64,000 nucleotides of DNA from Comamonas sp. lk (GCA_945865675.1 CAMBFO010000002.1:1-64000); one strand, 5' to 3'; positions 7,321 through 16,462 are shown, counted from the first letter of the stretch. The notes: generated by a model from the letters alone, not told the origin. Numbers and translations are program-made.

Positions 7321-7860
7321 ATGGAGAGTCCCCTACTTAAATTTCTAACCCGCCGACAGCTTTTCTGCAAAAGTCCGCTTGACATCGTGTGTGTTGAAAG
7401 CATAGGGGGTGGCGCCGTCATTGAGTGCTTTGGCAATGCCTACAGTCAGTTGCGCAAGCCAGGAGTCACGATTGTCAGTGGTTGGCTCGCAGAGCCACGG
7501 CAGAATTCGCACGCCAAGCGCCAATTCACCCAGCATTGGTGGAACTTTGACCAGCACAGCAGCGAATACTTCGACATATCGCCTGGAATTGAAAAGGGCG
7601 CAATTTATATTCTGGACCGTGATATTGCATTGTTCGCCATCGACAACAATGTGCGTCTTTCGAGCTGTGTTTCGCGCTCGGTTGTTTACTCGGGCGGCGA
7701 GTTTTATACCATGGAGTACGCATCAAGCGGCTACGATTTGCAGCCGGCACCAGACTTGTCCACGGAGCGGCTCTTTGCTCCCTTTCTGCAGCCAGCACCC
7801 CAGTTTGCAGCGAACGAGCCGGCGCCTCAGACCAATCTAGGCGTGGGGCTTATCCATTGA
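7321..7860 (+). CDS. Hypothetical protein
   Basis: 179-aa ORF between the hydrolase and the response regulator; no family recognised. Confidence 0.4.
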   Translation: MESPLLKFLTRRQLFCKSPLDIVCVESIGGGAVIECFGNAYSQLRKPGVTIVSGWLAEPRQNSHAKRQFTQHWWNFDQHSSEYFDISPGIEKGAIYILDRDIALFAIDNNVRLSSCVSRSVVYSGGEFYTMEYASSGYDLQPAPDLSTERLFAPFLQPAPQFAANEPAPQTNLGVGLIH

Positions 7861-8434
7861 GCAGGGTGGATCGAATAAGGTCAATCACACTATGTTGCCC
7901 GAGCTTCTCGAGCACCCGAGATTTATGAACCTCTACCGTTCGGGGACTGATCTGTAGCAAGCTGGCAATTTCTTTGTTGCTTTTTCCATCCAACAAATGG
8001 TTGCGAACTTCTGCTTCGCGGGGAGTTAGCTCACCCGGCTGGGGGCTATTTTGCTGCGGTGGTCGGCTGACACGCAGCACCGCTTTCCCAAGGGTATTCA
8101 TCAGTTCCTGGGGATCGTAGGGCTTTTCGATGAAATCGACCGCGCCCAAAAGGAAGGCTTGCCGTGCCGTGCGCACATCGCCATGGGCAGTGATGACAAT
8201 ACAGACCAGATGCGGTGCCCGCTCTTTTACCTGTTCCAACACTTGCAAACCGCTCATGCCCCCAAGGTAAATATCCAAGATGACGCAGCCCGTAGAGTCT
8301 GTGTTGATCACTCGCAGGAAATCTTCGGCGTTGGAAAATACCGATACGGAAGCCCCGGCCATGCTGGTTAAGAGCGCCAAGGCATCGCGAATGGCTGCCT
8401 CGTCGTCAACGATGTAGAGGTTAGTATTTTTCAA
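7850..8434 (-). CDS. Two-component response regulator, FixJ/NarL type (receiver + LuxR HTH)
   Basis: NLYIVDDEAAIRDAL...VILDIYLGGMSG...ITAHGDV...FIEKPY; LTPREAEVRNHLLDGKSNKEIASLLQISPRTVEVHKSRVLEKL. Confidence 0.93.
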   Translation of the reverse strand: MKNTNLYIVDDEAAIRDALALLTSMAGASVSVFSNAEDFLRVINTDSTGCVILDIYLGGMSGLQVLEQVKERAPHLVCIVITAHGDVRTARQAFLLGAVDFIEKPYDPQELMNTLGKAVLRVSRPPQQNSPQPGELTPREAEVRNHLLDGKSNKEIASLLQISPRTVEVHKSRVLEKLGQHSVIDLIRSTLLNG

Positions 8435-10064
8435 GGGCGTTTACATGCGTTGAACTGGCTATTGGCAAGGAAATTCGGAACTTCATGCTGGAATTGGGTA
8501 TCGCCACAATCTCGCCTTGGTGGGCTTCAATGACATCGCGGGCAAGGTGCAGTCCCACCCCCATGCCACCGGATGTCCGAGAATATCCAAAGTCAAAAAT
8601 TTCTTCCACCCGATCTTCGTCGATGAAGGTGCCACTGTCCCAAAAGTCTACATTGCAAGAGGTAGCATCAACCTTTAGCTCAACCCTAAGCCATCTGGCC
8701 GCACCGCGTGCTGCAGCCGAGGTGCCATTGGTCACCAGGTTGCGCAGCGCCAGGCTGAGTTGGGTCATATCGCCCCGGAATTGAATTGCATCTGCCCGCT
8801 CTATTTCGTAGATTTGTACGCCTAGGCTGCTCGCGCGTAGCGTTTCACTTTCTAAGGTTTTGCGAACCAGATCAACGAGATCGAATTCGCTCACGGATAA
8901 GCTGCCTTGCTGATAGAAATCTTTCACCCGGTGGACAATTTTGCGCACCCGAGCGGACTCTGTCACGATCGAGTTGACGGCGCGGCTGAGTTCGGGGTGG
9001 TGCCAGTCGGGTGTGTTGTGGATGATCTGATGGGCTGCCATCGCGTAGGTGCTAATGGAGGTCAGAGGTTGGCTGATTTCATGGGTCACCACCCCGGCAA
9101 TGCGGCCCAGTGTGGATGCCCGCTGGCGGCTGCGCAAGCGCCGCTCTGTCAGAACTTTCTCGTCAATGGTAACGCCGATGGTCAAGGCAACCAGGGAGAT
9201 CACCGTCATGAGTGCCTGTACTTCCAACACCACGCTGTTGGACGAATTGCGGGCCATATAAGCGCTCACCAAAAGCAATTGCGCAGGAAAGGACGCAAGG
9301 ATCACGCCGGACATTCCGTGCCGCACGGCAATCCAGGCCAGCGGCAGCAAAATGAAGTAGCTATAGCGCAGCGGTGTGGTGGTCGCAAAGGACGCCAAAG
9401 CGCCAATCACCATCACAATAACCAGCACAGGCCCGATGAAATTGGCCTGCTGTATCAAGCGCAGGCAGGCGCTGCGGCGCGCAGGGCTGGTAAGGGCAGA
9501 GAGCAAGGGCATGAGTACCAACAACCCAACCAAATCACCCACCGTTAGTTTGATAAACACGTCAACCCATGCGCCTATAGTGACCGCATCGAAGTAATGC
9601 AAGGTCGTTACGGTTAAGCAAGCGTTGAGCAGCACACAGGCAATCAGTGCCGTGAGTCCCACGATCAAGGTTTTGAAGTTGTTAAAGCTATGGAAACCGA
9701 CCGCATAACGCGTGATGGCTGCGCGGGCTCCCAGGTAGCAGGCAACGTTGATCAGCGTCAGGGCGATCGATTGCGCCCCCAATGGGTCGTTGCCCCGAAT
9801 CAGCCAGTCAGAGAGCGACAAGCCTGCTGCGTATGAAAAAACAAAACTGGTGCGTTGGCCAAAGGCAAAAATTGCCAATGCCGGCAGGGGGTTCCAGGCG
9901 GTGACGTTCAGGTTGGCCGTGGGTTGAATAAAGCTAACCCAATCCAAGGCAACCACGCCCAGTACCACCAGTACGTGCCAAAACAGGAGACTGTCAACAA
10001 TCGTGGAAGGTGATGGGCTACGCGGTAGCTGATGGGACAGTAATGGGACCAAAGCGGTTCGCAA
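8421..10064 (-). CDS. Sensor histidine kinase with MASE1-like N-terminal membrane domain
   Basis: Multiple TM segments then GRIAGVVTHEISQPLTSISTYAMAAHQ (H-box), LRNLVTNGTSAA (N-box), SGGMGVGLHLARDVIEAHQGEI (G-box). Overlaps the response regulator ORF by 14 nt. Confidence 0.9.
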   Translation of the reverse strand: MRTALVPLLSHQLPRSPSPSTIVDSLLFWHVLVVLGVVALDWVSFIQPTANLNVTAWNPLPALAIFAFGQRTSFVFSYAAGLSLSDWLIRGNDPLGAQSIALTLINVACYLGARAAITRYAVGFHSFNNFKTLIVGLTALIACVLLNACLTVTTLHYFDAVTIGAWVDVFIKLTVGDLVGLLVLMPLLSALTSPARRSACLRLIQQANFIGPVLVIVMVIGALASFATTTPLRYSYFILLPLAWIAVRHGMSGVILASFPAQLLLVSAYMARNSSNSVVLEVQALMTVISLVALTIGVTIDEKVLTERRLRSRQRASTLGRIAGVVTHEISQPLTSISTYAMAAHQIIHNTPDWHHPELSRAVNSIVTESARVRKIVHRVKDFYQQGSLSVSEFDLVDLVRKTLESETLRASSLGVQIYEIERADAIQFRGDMTQLSLALRNLVTNGTSAAARGAARWLRVELKVDATSCNVDFWDSGTFIDEDRVEEIFDFGYSRTSGGMGVGLHLARDVIEAHQGEIVAIPNSSMKFRISLPIASSTHVNALEKY

Positions 10065-10280: not shown

Positions 10281-10916
10281 TTACCAGCGTAGAAATCGGG
10301 CGCCCAAACCCGCGCCCAAAATTGCGGTCAAGCCCATGCCGACAGAGTACCAAAGGGCGAAGAAGGCAAAACTGTTCTCGGTGCAGTGCAGTGAGTACAG
10401 CATCGCAGCCAGGGCGCCTGCTGCTAAACCGGAGATGGCGCCGGTGAGGGCGGGCCGGGTTGGCGCCATGTCGCGCAGCGTCCATAGCAAAGCGGCCAAT
10501 ACGGGTAGAGCGACGAAAGCGATGCTCAAGGCACACACGTGCCAACTCGTTCCCAAGGCCAAGGCGCTGCGCTGCGCCGCCGGAGCTTGCAAGAGTTGGT
10601 TCATACCTTGCACGCCCATGGATAACATTGCCAAGCCAATAGCCCAAGCTGCCTTACCCATCGGCCGACCTGGGTGCGCGAGGCTATACACCAAGGCTGC
10701 GCTGAAAACGGCTAGCGCAAACAGCCACACCATCTTCAAGCTAAAGACCGAGGTGCTTGCGAATTCACTCAGCTTGGGATTCAAACCCATGGAAAACACC
10801 ATCACGCCACACACGGCCAGGGCCAGCGCCAAACGGCCACCGACTTGCCGGGAAGCAGGGCGCCGCGCCGGGCCGGCATCCTGCGCTAAAAAAGCAATCA
10901 ATTCATCGGTGTTCAT
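10281..10916 (-). CDS. nrsF: DUF1109 / NrsF-like six-TM negative regulator of the ECF sigma factor
   Basis: MNTDELIAFLAQDAGPARRP...; six-TM pattern; CPxxxH-like motifs not checked; directly downstream of the sigF-like gene. Confidence 0.85.
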   Translation of the reverse strand: MNTDELIAFLAQDAGPARRPASRQVGGRLALALAVCGVMVFSMGLNPKLSEFASTSVFSLKMVWLFALAVFSAALVYSLAHPGRPMGKAAWAIGLAMLSMGVQGMNQLLQAPAAQRSALALGTSWHVCALSIAFVALPVLAALLWTLRDMAPTRPALTGAISGLAAGALAAMLYSLHCTENSFAFFALWYSVGMGLTAILGAGLGARFLRW

Positions 10917-11473
10917 GGTGTCTCTCTCCATTGGGTGGCCAAGGCCTTTAAGCCGCGGTGCACATTCACTTTCACGGCCGCTTCGCTTTGTCCGGTCAAG
11001 GTCGCGGTCTCGGTGATCGACAGGCCTTGCAACTTGGTGTGTTCAATCGCCAGGCGCTGTTTGTCGGGCAACAGCGTCAGCATATGGCTCAGGTCCCGAC
11101 GCGAGTCTGCAACTTCGGTCTCGCTGCTGGCGGCCAAGACTTCCGACCAGTCGTCTAAGTCATCATGCAAAGCCTCACGCCGACCATGCGCGCGCAAATG
11201 GTCAATCCATTTGTAGCGTGCGATCGCGTACATCCACGCCGTAAAGGCTTGCTCGGCTTGGTAGGTGTGGCGCTTTTGATGAATGGCCAACAGGGTTTCT
11301 TGCACGAGGTCCTCGACATCACTGGCTTGCGACTGCATACGCCGATTCAGATAGCGCCGCAGGTAGCCACTGATCACCGTCAAAGCGCGCGCATAGCAGG
11401 CGGCGTCACCCTCTTGGGCTTGCAGCCATAGCGCATGCAATTGGAGTTCAATGGTTTGCAGGCTTTCGCTCAT
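10913..11473 (-). CDS. sigF: ECF RNA polymerase sigma factor, SigF-like
   Basis: VEDLVQETLLAIHQKRHTYQAEQAFTAWMYAIARYKWIDHLRAHGRRE ... LLPDKQRLAIEHTKLQGLSITETATLTGQSEAAVKVNVHRGLKAL. Confidence 0.92.
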   Translation of the reverse strand: MSESLQTIELQLHALWLQAQEGDAACYARALTVISGYLRRYLNRRMQSQASDVEDLVQETLLAIHQKRHTYQAEQAFTAWMYAIARYKWIDHLRAHGRREALHDDLDDWSEVLAASSETEVADSRRDLSHMLTLLPDKQRLAIEHTKLQGLSITETATLTGQSEAAVKVNVHRGLKALATQWRETP

Positions 11474-11481
11474 CAAGTCAG

Positions 11482-11507
11482 TTCGCTGGTGGGTTTGAAA
11501 AAGTTAC
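11482..11507 (-). promoter_or_regulatory. Candidate ECF (SigF-type) autoregulatory promoter
   Basis: Minus strand GTAACT-TTTTCAAACCCACCAG(16)-CGAA. Confidence 0.6.
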
Positions 11508-11540
11508 AGATATAAAAAGAAAAAATAATTTCAATTTTCC

Positions 11541-11566
11541 GTAACTTTTCGATGTCGTGCAGCGGA
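11541..11566 (+). promoter_or_regulatory. Candidate ECF (SigF-type) promoter of the bufferin-like operon
   Basis: GTAACT-TTTCGATGTCGTGCAG(16)-CGGA; same spacing as the sigF and thioredoxin sites. Confidence 0.6.
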
Positions 11567-11652
11567 TTACACCATGACAGCGCTTGACAAGTGCCAAGAC
11601 GGCATCAGTCAAAGCGGTCATTTTCAACCTTCATTTCTTCAGGAGATTTTTC

Positions 11653-11982
11653 ATGAAAAAGCAACAACTTCTCGCCATCGCTCTGGGCTCTGCATTTGCC
11701 GTCGTAGGTATTTTGCCCGCTCATGCCGCAGGCAACCCTTTCGCAGCCAAAACCTTGGATGCCGGCTACCAAATCGCCCAAGCCGACATGAAAGCTGACA
11801 TGAAGGGCGAGACCAAAGTCAAAGACGCTAGCTGTGGAGCAGATAAAGAAATGACCAAATCCATGGATAAAAAGAAAGACGGAAGCTGTGGCGCTGGCAC
11901 AAAAGCCGATATGAAGATGGACAGCAAAGCCAAAGACGGTAAGTGCGGCGAAGCCAAGTGCGGTGCCGATAAAAAGAAATAA
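11653..11982 (+). CDS. Bufferin/HvfA-like RiPP precursor (signal peptide + Cys4 repeat core)
   Basis: MKKQQLLAIALGSAFAVVGILPAHA signal peptide; four Cys, each followed by Gly (KDASCGA, KDGSCGA, KDGKCG, EAKCGA); RBS AGGAG; directly upstream of a DUF692 gene. Confidence 0.88.
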   Translation: MKKQQLLAIALGSAFAVVGILPAHAAGNPFAAKTLDAGYQIAQADMKADMKGETKVKDASCGADKEMTKSMDKKKDGSCGAGTKADMKMDSKAKDGKCGEAKCGADKKK

Positions 11983-12025
11983 GCCCTGCCCCTGACACAT
12001 TGATTTTTAAATCTGAGTCTTTCGC

Positions 12026-12931
12026 ATGGCCACGATCGCACTTCACGCTGCAGGCTTGGGTTTTCGCCGCGAGCTGATCCCGACGCTGCAGCAAGAGGTG
12101 CCCTCAGCCGTCCAGTTTTTCGAGCTCGCCCCCGAAAACTGGGCGGGTATGGGGGGCCGCGCTGGCCGCGCTTTGCGGGCCTTTACCGAGCGCTTCCCTT
12201 TTGTCTGCCACGGCTTGACTTTGTCCCTGGGTGGCCCAGGGCCGTTGGACGAATTGTTATTGCGCCGCACCCGTGACTTCATGCGCGAACACGGCATGAA
12301 GCTGTTCACCGAACACCTGTCTTGGTGCGCCGACGACAGCCACTTGTACGAGTTACTCCCCATTCCCATGACCGAGGAGGCGGTGCGCTATACGGCCGAG
12401 CGCATTGCACGGGCGCAAGACATTTTGGGCATGCGCATCGGCGTGGAAAACGCTTCCACCTACATCGCACCACCCGGCGCCGAAATGACCGAACCCGAAT
12501 TTGTGCGTGCCGTGATCGAGCAGGCCGATTGCCTGCTGCACTTGGATGTGAACAATATCTATGTCAACAGCCAGAACTTTGGCTTTGACCAACATGCGTA
12601 CTTAGAGCAACTGCCACTGGAACGCACCTGCTATGTGCATGTGGCCGGTCACTATGTGGAAGCCGACGGGTTGTTGATCGACACCCACGGCAGCGAGGTG
12701 ATCGACCCGGTGTGGCAACTGCTGCAAGCCGCTTACCAGCGTATCGGCCACTCGGTTCCCACCTGCTTGGAGCGCGACTTCAACATCCCCGACTTGCCTA
12801 CCTTGGCGCAAGAGGTGGCCCACATTGCACGCTTGCAAAAAGCCGCCTGGCCTCGTGTTTCAGAGCAGCCTCTTTTGCCCGAAGTGCACCAAGCTTTGTT
12901 TCATGTAGCCTCACCTTGGCAGGTGGCCTGA
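12026..12931 (+). CDS. MNIO family (DUF692) multinuclear non-heme iron oxidative enzyme, BufB/HvfB-like
   Basis: GLGFRRELIPTL...FELAPENWAGMGG...GVENASTYIAPPGAEMTEPEF...LHLDVNNIYVNSQNFGFD...VHVAGHYVEADGLLIDTHGSEVIDPVW. Confidence 0.95.
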   Translation: MATIALHAAGLGFRRELIPTLQQEVPSAVQFFELAPENWAGMGGRAGRALRAFTERFPFVCHGLTLSLGGPGPLDELLLRRTRDFMREHGMKLFTEHLSWCADDSHLYELLPIPMTEEAVRYTAERIARAQDILGMRIGVENASTYIAPPGAEMTEPEFVRAVIEQADCLLHLDVNNIYVNSQNFGFDQHAYLEQLPLERTCYVHVAGHYVEADGLLIDTHGSEVIDPVWQLLQAAYQRIGHSVPTCLERDFNIPDLPTLAQEVAHIARLQKAAWPRVSEQPLLPEVHQALFHVASPWQVA

Positions 12932-13665
12932 TGCTGGCCTTTCAACACTTTCAGCACGCGCTGGCGCAGCATCTGCGCGACCCACACCATACCCGACGTC
13001 CTGCAGGGGTGCCACAACGCCGCACGGCGGTTTACAACGAGCTGGTGTTCACCAATAGCTGCGGTTTTGTGGACAGCTGTTTTCCGGTCTGCCGCCAGTT
13101 GCTGGGCGAGGCCCGCTGGCGCAGGCTGTGCCGCACCTTTGTCCGCGACTGGCCACTGCACACGCCCTGGTTTCGCGAGATCCCGCGTGAGTTTGTGCGC
13201 TACCTGAGCGAACACACTATTGCACAAGCCCTGCCGCGCTGGTTGGCCGAGCTGGCCCATTACGAATGGGCCGAGCTGGCGGTGGACGTGATGGAGGCCG
13301 CGGTCCCTGCACACGACCCTCAAGGCGACATGATGCAAGCGCGCGTGCTGCTCAACCCCGCTCGCGTGGATGTGGCCAGTCAATGGCCGGTGCACCGCAT
13401 CGGGCCGACCTTGCGCCCGCGAAAAACAGAATCTACTTTTCTGGTGGTGTTTCGCGATGCTCAGCTCATAGTGAAATTTACCGAAATCAACGCGGTGACG
13501 GCGCATGTACTGGCGCTCTTGGACAGCGGCCTGAGCGGCCAGCAGGCCTTTACGCAACTGGCGCGTGAAATGGCGCATCCCGACCCAGTGGCCTTACAAG
13601 GCTTTGGCCGAGAACTTCTCACCGGCTTGCGTGAGCAAGGCTTAATTTTGGGTACTCTGACATGA
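12931..13665 (+). CDS. DUF2063 family MNIO partner protein (BufC/HvfC-like)
   Basis: [89 protein letters not shown] overlaps the DUF692 stop (ATGA). Confidence 0.9.
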
Positions 13666-14168
13666 ATTCTGTACGGATCTTTATCCGCCTAGGCCTGAAC
13701 GCACTGGACACCGCAGGCCTGTGGCTTGGCATGCTCAGCCTGCGCCTGCTGTTGGCTTGGGAGTTTGGCGAGGCTGGTTTTGAAAAACTGCAGGGGATTA
13801 ACTGGTTTGCCGACATTCAAGATCAATTTCCCTGGCCCTTCAAGCTGATTTCCGCCGATCTGAACTGGGCCACGGCCACGGGTTTTGAAATCGTGGGCGC
13901 CATCGCCTTGGTCATCGGTCTGGGTACACGCTTCTTTTCTGCTTCGCTGATCGTACTCACTGTCGTCGCGATATTCAGTGTGCATTGGCCCGAATCGTGG
14001 TCTACCTGGGCTGAATTGTTTCAAGGCTATGCATTGACCGATAAAGGCCACGGCAACTTCAAACTACCCGTGATCTATATCGCCATGCTGCTGCCGCTGG
14101 TGTTCATAGGGCCAGGGCGCTTGTCGCTGGACGCGGCGTTGCGAGAGCGCCTGCGAGTGAAAACTTGA
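13662..14168 (+). CDS. DoxX family membrane protein of the bufferin-like operon
   Basis: [34 protein letters not shown]...[37 protein letters not shown]; overlaps the preceding stop. Confidence 0.88.
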
Positions 14169-14260: not shown

Positions 14261-15127
14261 ATGAAATTCAATCAATGGGCTTTATCTATCGGTGTGGCGG
14301 CTGCGCTGACAGCCTGTGGCGGGAGCAGTAGCGGGCCATCGCTCAATGTGCAGTTAACCGGGTTGGAAAATCTCGGTGCAGCCTCCGTTTACGAAGGTTG
14401 GCTGATTGTGAATGGGGCACCTAAAAGTGCGGGACGATTCACAGTCAATGACCAAGGCGTGATGAGCCACAACAGTTTTTCGCTAGAGAGTGCGGATATC
14501 GCATCGGCGACGGCCTATGTTCTGACCATCGAGCCGCAAAATGACACCGATCCCGCACCCACCAAGACGCATTTGCTGGCAGGCGATTTTGACGCGGCTC
14601 GCACGCTAGCGACTTTGAGTGTGGGGCATAGCGCAGCTTTGGGTAGTGATTTCACCAATGCCGCCGCCAAATTCTTTTTGGCCACACCCACCAATCCAGG
14701 CACTGATGACCAGGGCATCTGGTGGATCGATCCCAGCTCGGGAAGCATGCAGGCGGGCTTGAGCTTGCCCACCTTGCCTGCGGGTTGGGTGTATGAGGGC
14801 TGGGTGGTGGTGGACGGCAAACCCACCACTACAGGCAGGTTTACCAGTGTGACGGGGGCAGACAGTGATGGTGCAGGACCCACCAAAGGCGCAGGTGCTG
14901 CGCCGCCATTTCCCGGGCAAGACTTCATTAACCCTGCCAAGAAGCTTCCCGGCGGGATGGCTGTGATATCTATTGAGCCAGAGCCGGACAACAGCGCCGC
15001 GCCATTTTTGTTGAAACCCTTGCTGACCAATCCGATCAGCAATGCCACAGGTACGAGCAATTTGCAGACCATGGTCAATCAGGCCAGCAAGGTCAATCCC
15101 AAAGGAACTGTGACCATCGTTCGATGA
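14261..15127 (+). CDS. Lipoprotein with two RskA-like (anti-sigma-K ectodomain-like) repeats
   Basis: Lipobox LTACG; repeats VYEGWLIVNGAPKSAGRFTV and VYEGWVVVDGKPTTTGRFTS. Confidence 0.65.
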   Translation: MKFNQWALSIGVAAALTACGGSSSGPSLNVQLTGLENLGAASVYEGWLIVNGAPKSAGRFTVNDQGVMSHNSFSLESADIASATAYVLTIEPQNDTDPAPTKTHLLAGDFDAARTLATLSVGHSAALGSDFTNAAAKFFLATPTNPGTDDQGIWWIDPSSGSMQAGLSLPTLPAGWVYEGWVVVDGKPTTTGRFTSVTGADSDGAGPTKGAGAAPPFPGQDFINPAKKLPGGMAVISIEPEPDNSAAPFLLKPLLTNPISNATGTSNLQTMVNQASKVNPKGTVTIVR

Positions 15128-15217: not shown

Positions 15218-15243
15218 GTAACTTATGACGGCGTCCAAACGAA
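15218..15243 (+). promoter_or_regulatory. Candidate ECF (SigF-type) promoter upstream of the thioredoxin/CcdA pair
   Basis: GTAACT-TATGACGGCGTCCAAA(16)-CGAA; hexamer, spacing and -10 identical to the sigF site. Confidence 0.6.
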
Positions 15244-15325: not shown

Positions 15326-15706
15326 ATGAACAGAACACTGACCTTGCTGGCCCTGTCTTTGACCGCCTGGCTGGCTCCGGCCCATGCGCTGGAGATAATG
15401 CCTTACACCGCCCAAGCGCTGATGGGCAAGCAACAAGCGGGTGAAGTGGTGGGTTTACATTTCCATGCGGCATGGTGCCCGACTTGCCGCGTACAGGAAA
15501 AAGTGTTTAACAGTTTCAAAGGGGACGCAGCGGTGCCAGGCACCCTGCTGGTGGTGGACTACGACCAAGAGCGCGAACTCAAGCGTGAACTGGGTGTGCG
15601 CTCGCAATCGACCCTGATTGTCTACAAAGGCAAAGAGCAAAAACACCGCTCCGGCGGTGTGACCGATGCGCAGGCTTTGCGCGGCGCATGGGTGTCTGCT
15701 CAGTAA
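15326..15706 (+). CDS. Secreted thioredoxin-fold protein
   Basis: Signal peptide; VVGLHFHAAWCPTCRVQEKVFNSF active site WCPTC. Confidence 0.9.
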   Translation: MNRTLTLLALSLTAWLAPAHALEIMPYTAQALMGKQQAGEVVGLHFHAAWCPTCRVQEKVFNSFKGDAAVPGTLLVVDYDQERELKRELGVRSQSTLIVYKGKEQKHRSGGVTDAQALRGAWVSAQ

Positions 15707-15733
15707 TCCGATACACAGCAAAAGGGACACCTC

Positions 15734-16462
15734 ATGGATCTGGCCATCAGTCACCTGGGTTTGAGCTTGCTCGCCGGCAGTTTGACCACCCTCTCACCTT
15801 GCGTGTTCCCCATATTGCCAATGGTCTTGGGCGGGGCCGCGCAGGGTAATCGCCTGGCGCCCTTGGCCATGGGCCTGGGCATGGCCTTGTCGTTTGCCGG
15901 TATGGGCGTGCTGATCGGCTCCTTGGGGCCCGTCATCGGTCTGGATGCAGACCATGTGCGCTTGTTTGGTGCAGCTTTGTTGATAGGTCTAGGTCTGACA
16001 ATGTGGGTGCCGGCACTAAATGAGCGTTTTGCCCAATGGATGATGCCACTGGCCAGTGGCGCCAATAATATGTCTTCGCGCATGCAGGGTGACACCCTGG
16101 GCGGGGCCTTGATGTTGGGTGCCGTTTTGGGCTTGGTCTGGAGTCCCTGCTCAGGCCCCTTGCTGGCTTCGGCCTTGACCCTGGTAGCCAGTGAAGGCGG
16201 GGCCGTGCGTGGGGGTATTGTGTTGGGTCTGTTTGGTGTGGGTGCAGCCACACCTTTGGTAGCTGTGGCTTACGCATCGCGCCGGGGCTTTCAGTCAGTG
16301 CGTGACAAAGTCTTGATGCACGGGGATCGGGTCAAAAAAATATTCGGCGGATTGATTTTTCTGGCAGGCCTGGGTATTGCCACCGGCGCCGATAAATGGC
16401 TTGAAGCGCAAGCGGTGGATCGTCTGCCTGAGGTGTGGTTGCGCTGGACCACCTTGTTTTGA
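15734..16462 (+). CDS. CcdA/DsbD-transmembrane-like cytochrome c biogenesis protein
   Basis: TTLSPCVFPILPMVLGG and LGLVWSPCSGPLLASALTL: paired Cys TM helices. Confidence 0.9.
   Translation: MDLAISHLGLSLLAGSLTTLSPCVFPILPMVLGGAAQGNRLAPLAMGLGMALSFAGMGVLIGSLGPVIGLDADHVRLFGAALLIGLGLTMWVPALNERFAQWMMPLASGANNMSSRMQGDTLGGALMLGAVLGLVWSPCSGPLLASALTLVASEGGAVRGGIVLGLFGVGAATPLVAVAYASRRGFQSVRDKVLMHGDRVKKIFGGLIFLAGLGIATGADKWLEAQAVDRLPEVWLRWTTLF

Follow-up and report, generated by a model that had tools for sequence, protein, structure and literature searches.

The window analysed here, a stretch of 64,000 nt from the freshwater bacterium Comamonas sp. lk (GCA_945865675.1, CAMBFO010000002.1:1-64000; positions are counted from its first letter), carries a locus that by its sequence is an EGKCG/oxazolin-type captophorin operon (secreted four-cysteine precursor, HvfB, HvfC and HvfX) divergent from an nrsF-sigF pair, with a thioredoxin (Trx) and DsbD gene pair (trx-dsbD) downstream. 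It is probable that a single SigF regulon couples a copper-chelating thiooxazole peptide with the repair of thiols and methionine in the periplasm. An earlier, sequence-only reading of the window had described two regulatory genes running leftwards and four genes of a ribosomally synthesised and post-translationally modified peptide (RiPP) locus running rightwards, and all six were confirmed at their coordinates by reading the window and by scanning its proteins against NCBIfam and Pfam profile hidden Markov models (HMMs) with curated cut-offs; the start listed for sigF (TTG 11476) was given up in favour of the likelier ATG 11473, the gene itself being upheld. The core genes and the promoters between them are as follows.

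10281-10931, minus strand: nrsF, six-transmembrane anti-sigma factor (DUF1109); PF06532 179 bits, cut-off 26.8
10913-11473, minus strand: sigF, extracytoplasmic function (ECF) sigma factor, sigma-70 regions 2 and 4; likely start ATG 11473
11482-11507, minus strand: sigma-F-type promoter of sigF, GTAACTTTTTCAAACCCACCAGCGAA; same place in 20 relatives
11541-11566, plus strand: sigma-F-type promoter of the precursor operon, GTAACTTTTCGATGTCGTGCAGCGGA
11653-11982, plus strand: hvfA-like precursor, 109 aa, four cysteines; NF050137 KCGExKCG_twice 22.5 bits, cut-off 19.5
12026-12931, plus strand: hvfB-like MNIO; PF05114 325 bits; NF003818 HvfB 386.8, cut-off 360; 3bww E=1.6e-72
12931-13665, plus strand: hvfC-like DUF2063/RiPP recognition element (RRE) partner (PME type 1); NF050145 264.5, cut-off 142; PF09836, PF22106
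13662-14168, plus strand: hvfX/DoxX membrane protein; NF050144 146, cut-off 80; PF07681

When species genomes were scanned with the window MNIO, 80 loci were obtained (designated below by L numbers), mainly from Limnohabitans, other Comamonadaceae and Rhodocyclales (Azonexus, Dechloromonas, Zoogloea). Related genomes contain 20 loci with the six-gene set in identical order (identity 64-95% for SigF, 47-88% for full-length NrsF), and because both order and content recur in this way the arrangement in the window is not a product of chance. Among 100 sampled genomes of the window's own genus this MNIO was found in one other only (94% identical), the remainder being ~40% identical or lower.

Precursor and maturation proteins

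The precursor consists of a Sec signal peptide (judged by eye), a conserved NPFAAKTLDAGYQIAQAD leader that is almost invariant in the alignment of relatives (NPFAAKTLDAGYQ.AQAD) and a methionine-rich spacer, and its cysteines stand in ASCG, GSCG, GKCG and AKCG contexts, giving two KCG and two SCG. In 78 of the 80 loci sequence comparison revealed a precursor homologue upstream of the MNIO; these peptides carry two to twelve cysteines, mostly in EGKCG/DGKCGEAKCG repeats of varying number, and in the window precursor and its nearest kin (L032, L033, L036) methionine-rich spacers and SCG replace two KCGEAKCG repeats. On this pattern the precursor is grouped with the EGKCG/oxazolin precursors, now named captophorins. 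Of the earlier label, bufferin/HvfA-like, the HvfA-like branch of MNIO/DUF2063/DoxX RiPP loci was borne out by the HvfB, HvfC and HvfX models, all above their cut-offs, and the bufferin part was dropped: the precursor has no match in the Pfam scan, hence no DUF2282 (Buf1), and four cysteines rather than the 6 or 12 conserved cysteines of Buf2, so that strictly the locus falls outside the bufferins.

The MNIO assignment itself held when the DUF692 and DUF2063 families were searched, as the earlier reading had proposed (PF05114, 325 bits; PF09836 matched), and the His/Asp/Glu/Asn active-site set of HvfB is conserved across 81 sequences. A BufB identity was rejected (BufB model 250, under its cut-off of 310), as was a methanobactin enzyme (MbnB; TIGR04159 40.9 bits vs 325, with DUF2063 as the partner protein). 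The MNIO and hvfC genes overlap by 1 nt and hvfC and doxX by 4 nt. In characterised relatives HvfB-HvfC produce copper-binding 5-thiooxazoles (PMC13419390, PMC12668002), the modification of EGKCG precursors having been reassigned to 5-thiooxazole (PMC12668002, PMC13419390), and the window MNIO is predicted to turn precursor cysteines into this group (-4 Da each). The metal (copper) handling role first proposed for the locus is likely, and for this organism we infer both the cysteine modification and the copper binding. In two same-genus genomes (L179, L180) an MNIO apparently fused to DUF2063, of ~580-610 aa (Pfam-checked in L180), lies beside SigF-NrsF and DoxX.

SigF-NrsF and its promoters

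The proposed SigF-NrsF link was substantiated by the PF06532 score (179 bits), by alignment of both sensing cysteines and by GTAAC-N16/17-CGAA promoters on sigF and its putative targets. The window NrsF, the sole NrsF found in its own genome, lies below the NCBIfam NrsF equivalog (128 vs cut-off 300); its C133 and C183 match Caulobacter C131/C181, and among the 25 aligned relatives all have C133 and 23 have C183. SigF-NrsF stands beside the operon in a Limnohabitans-like clade (L032-L048, L050 and L067, with L040 counted although its nrsF is cut by a contig end), and L055 and L066 have diverged copies of it; no NrsF was found in the remaining EGKCG loci examined, many of which have another ECF sigma class. 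The Rhodocyclales EGKCG operons L049, L058, L065 and L105 have an ECF sigma factor of a second class and no NrsF, and no anti-sigma factor was identified alongside. In the sigma tree the SigF of the clade is sister (support 88) to SigF found beside trx-dsbD without an MNIO (L171, L173), and the SigF group that includes these is placed close to the SigF of MNIO-DUF2063 fusion loci, a topology compatible with swapping of the regulatory module among operon types, the direction of which it does not indicate.

The sequence-only reading had overlooked the two facing sigma-F-like promoters of the intergenic region (GTAACTT-N15-CGRA), whose distance is kept in relatives, as well as the trx-dsbD pair with a promoter of its own. 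In the window and across the whole clade (L032-L050, L067) only ~8 nt separate the end of the sigF promoter's -10 box from the ATG of the gene, and because of this short distance the sigF mRNA may be leaderless or almost so. The precursor-operon promoter recurs as GTAAC-N17-CGRA at -110 to -119 in 18/20 relatives. The third promoter and the genes behind it are as follows.

15218-15243, plus strand: sigma-F-type promoter of trx-dsbD, GTAACTTATGACGGCGTCCAAACGAA (GTAACTT-N15-CGAA), 83 nt before the thioredoxin gene
15326-15706, plus strand: exported thioredoxin, WCPTC motif; PF00085 32.9 bits, cut-off 23.5; signal peptide judged by eye
15734-16462, plus strand: DsbD transmembrane domain (DsbD-TM)/CcdA-like protein, 242 aa, two cysteines; PF02683 68.5 bits, cut-off 27.1

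The unit first drawn at 10281-14168 thus keeps its core genes and loses its limits, as trx-dsbD (15326-16462) and other genes share the promoter type. The trx promoter is conserved in 8/11 SigF-bearing relatives that have the pair, and the motif was found in 0/13 trx loci without SigF-NrsF. In the three SigF loci without the site (L035, L036, L040) trx lies directly behind doxX, where read-through would serve.

A strict motif scan of 16 whole genomes (G333 and G408 apparently being one and the same genome) gave 33 matches, 31 of which lie before sigF (14), a fusion of a VTT domain to an FAD disulfide oxidoreductase (VTT-FAD, 7), trx-dsbD (6), an exported MsrB (2), the precursor (1) or MsrP (1); one of the other two lies upstream of an unrelated gene, and the gene behind the last was not read. 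The msrB motif is present in 4/4 genomes with the closest MsrB homologue. Before the VTT-FAD gene the motif was found in 0/29 other same-genus genomes examined, including 0/5 with a Buf-type SigF-NrsF. In the window's own genome the fusion (VTT-domain, TVP38/DedA-like, with pyridine nucleotide-disulfide oxidoreductase) lies on contig C77 (L198 862-3914) under a sigma-F-type promoter and is followed by a DUF3047 gene; L169 has a similar VTT-FAD-type fusion not far from a trx-dsbD pair.

Several observations weigh against a SigF regulon that couples the peptide to thiol repair. The precursor falls below the HvfA equivalog (NF050188 25.9 bits vs cut-off 95), and only two of its four cysteines are KCG, the SCG context of the other two being a less tested substrate. 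The genome-wide motif count (33) is not above that of a reversed-pattern control, which gave a similar or larger number, and for this reason the regulon argument rests on the positions of the matches. The motif before msrP, found in only 1/10 genomes, may be a chance match, and MsrP was rejected as a general regulon member. Finally, 9/20 SigF loci have no trx-dsbD in the flank examined, so that the pair, absent from about half of them, is not obligatory. This last absence, together with the finding that at least three loose-motif matches arise in 8/100 window shuffles, would also fit with the locus being an ordinary SigF-NrsF captophorin operon with trx-dsbD a neighbour by chance and its motif coincidental. 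However, the retention of the trx promoter in relatives, its absence from trx loci without SigF-NrsF and the coherent set formed by the unlinked genes under a like promoter make such a coincidence improbable.

Placement of trx-dsbD and DoxX

At EGKCG operons trx-dsbD follows doxX, follows hvfC with nothing between, or is split with the operon in the middle, and independent cases of the pair next to an MNIO operon or SigF are L167, L171, L173, L184 and L186; in L167 and L186 the operons are of the Buf type (L186 with a DUF2282 precursor). An obligate linkage to the MNIO was rejected, as the pair lies elsewhere in the majority of the 25 order-level genomes in which a DsbD homologue occurs. These placements bear on the possibility that the captophorin operon and trx-dsbD are co-regulated yet serve separate targets, the peptide buffering copper and Trx-DsbD repairing periplasmic disulfides and methionine sulfoxides in general, with MsrB or a similar enzyme as a protein that it reduces, once hypochlorite or a metal has caused stress. 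This is a serious possibility, if somewhat short of an even one: in L171 and L173 trx-dsbD neighbours SigF with no MNIO alongside, across most of the order it lies apart from MNIO genes, the MsrB of relatives has an identical promoter type, and Haemophilus RpoE2 controls MsrAB together with the hvf cluster under hypochlorite (PMC7907618). However, several Rhodocyclales loci without NrsF have the pair immediately after hvfC, where DoxX would otherwise stand, and this placement is a hint of a closer link with the peptide.

Among NrsF-negative loci, both DoxX and Trx occur in 2, DoxX only in 23, Trx only in 11 and neither in 18 (Fisher p=0.012; L040 enters this tally only because a contig end cuts its nrsF). 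Strict exclusivity of DoxX and Trx-DsbD was nonetheless rejected as not significant, since the phylogenetically independent pairs in which both traits differ number only 2-3, every one of them with the traits changing in opposite directions. Thioredoxin and DsbD are not mentioned in the main text of the landscape paper (PMC12452194) or of the captophorin paper (PMC12668002); as the landscape study joined unrelated genes only if they lay within 10 bp (PMC12452194), the association with trx-dsbD would be missed by it.

Between doxX and trx lies one further gene.

14261-15127, plus strand: lipoprotein with two RskA_C-like stretches; PF10099 52.5 bits

It occurs in 6/80 loci (L032, L038, L041, L042, L046, L067; 77-95% identical), a weak association; its RskA_C-like stretches are of the anti-sigma-K periplasmic type, and the sigma-binding part is not present. 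On the other side, a MASE1-type histidine kinase and a FixJ-like response regulator (7850-10064, minus strand) adjoin nrsF and are not conserved beside the operon in relatives.

Proposed mechanism

Gene content, promoter conservation and motif-based regulon membership, which were observed directly, allow the construction of a model in which signal, chemistry, copper binding and the role of Trx-DsbD would be as follows. By analogy with Caulobacter, a metal or oxidant may strike the two periplasm-facing cysteines of NrsF and so free SigF, which would raise its own synthesis and that of NrsF from the GTAACTT-N15-CGRA promoter of sigF and nrsF. SigF would also transcribe the precursor/HvfB/HvfC/DoxX operon, the downstream trx-dsbD pair and, unlinked in the genome, the VTT-FAD fusion, joined in some relatives by an exported MsrB. 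HvfB-HvfC would make 5-thiooxazoles from precursor cysteines in the cytoplasm, and the modified peptide would leave via Sec and then bind Cu(I). Trx supplied by DsbD-TM could keep the exposed 5-thiooxazole thiols reduced, and might do so for Msr enzymes and further thiols of the periplasm too. We infer the peptide-reducing role because the thiol of 5-thiooxazole can be alkylated and was suspected by the authors of disulfide aggregation (PMC12668002); sequence alone does not separate a peptide-specific role from broader thiol/Msr reduction. A stronger form, in which SigF captophorin loci have a dedicated reducing pathway (DsbD-TM to Trx, with VTT-FAD) that keeps these thiols reduced and copper-competent, and for which DoxX can substitute in other captophorin loci, is put forward only tentatively.

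An alternate scenario concerns the metal: peptide and regulon may respond to chromate, cadmium, gold or hypochlorite, with copper binding incidental. Chromium and cadmium were the metals used to characterise Caulobacter SigF (PMC3511200), and Haemophilus RpoE2 responds to hypochlorite (PMC7907618). However, the characterised EGKCG peptides oxazolin and fontiphorin bind copper (PMC13419390, PMC12668002), and this scenario appears less likely than not. A SigF regulon for copper chelation and sulfur repair, the reading preferred here, touches on two questions raised by the widespread EGKCG captophorins, namely how they survive in an oxidising periplasm and what DoxX does, and through the conserved promoter that links trx-dsbD with that operon a candidate reductant can be named for the peptide.

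Comparison with known systems

The operon resembles those of oxazolin (hvfABCX, Haemophilus influenzae), fontiphorin and gonophorin in its Sec-exported GKCG precursor, HvfB MNIO, HvfC RRE partner and HvfX DoxX. It differs from them in having four cysteines only, two SCG and a methionine-rich spacer, and in having SigF-NrsF and a linked Trx-DsbD where they have an ECF sigma factor and a small zinc-type anti-sigma factor. With Buf1 and Buf2 bufferins and Cupriavidus gigPABT it shares MNIO, DUF2063, DoxX and a likely copper stress role, but its precursor has neither DUF2282 nor the six-cysteine Buf2 pattern.

The regulator resembles the Caulobacter SigF-NrsF regulon (CC3252-CC3257, CC2905-2907, CC2748), in which sigF-nrsF likewise lies beside an MNIO/DUF2063/DoxX operon with GTAAC...CGAA promoters and two NrsF cysteines; Caulobacter SigF recognises GTAACC-N16-CGAA, and the NrsF cysteines are required (PMC3511200). 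The precedent cited by the sequence-only reading therefore stands for SigF-NrsF regulation and not like for like, as the Caulobacter operons are of the DUF2282 (Buf1) type (PMC3511200). The landscape paper text gives sigma/NrsF for Buf1, not Buf2, and does not mention EGKCG loci with sigma/NrsF (PMC12452194), and on both counts the pairing in the window departs from that precedent. Further, the Caulobacter regulon lists no Trx-DsbD, VTT-FAD fusion or MsrB, its redox member being a YedY/MsrP-like protein.

The concept of such a regulon is already known, because the Neisseria SigE and Haemophilus RpoE2 regulons pair an operon of this kind with MsrAB; new here are the pairing of an EGKCG operon with the SigF-NrsF class, the unfused Trx with DsbD-TM and the VTT-FAD fusion. 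In Neisseria SigE-MseR and Haemophilus RpoE2-HrsE, as is proposed for the window, an ECF sigma factor co-regulates a DUF692/DUF2063/DoxX cluster and periplasmic sulfur repair (MsrAB; Trx-MsrAB in Neisseria). However, those systems use ECF13 with a small ZAS-type anti-sigma factor and a thioredoxin domain fused to MsrAB, whereas the window has free Trx and DsbD-TM, and two unrelated sigma/anti-sigma classes would thus have converged on the pairing of a copper-binding peptide with periplasmic sulfur repair.

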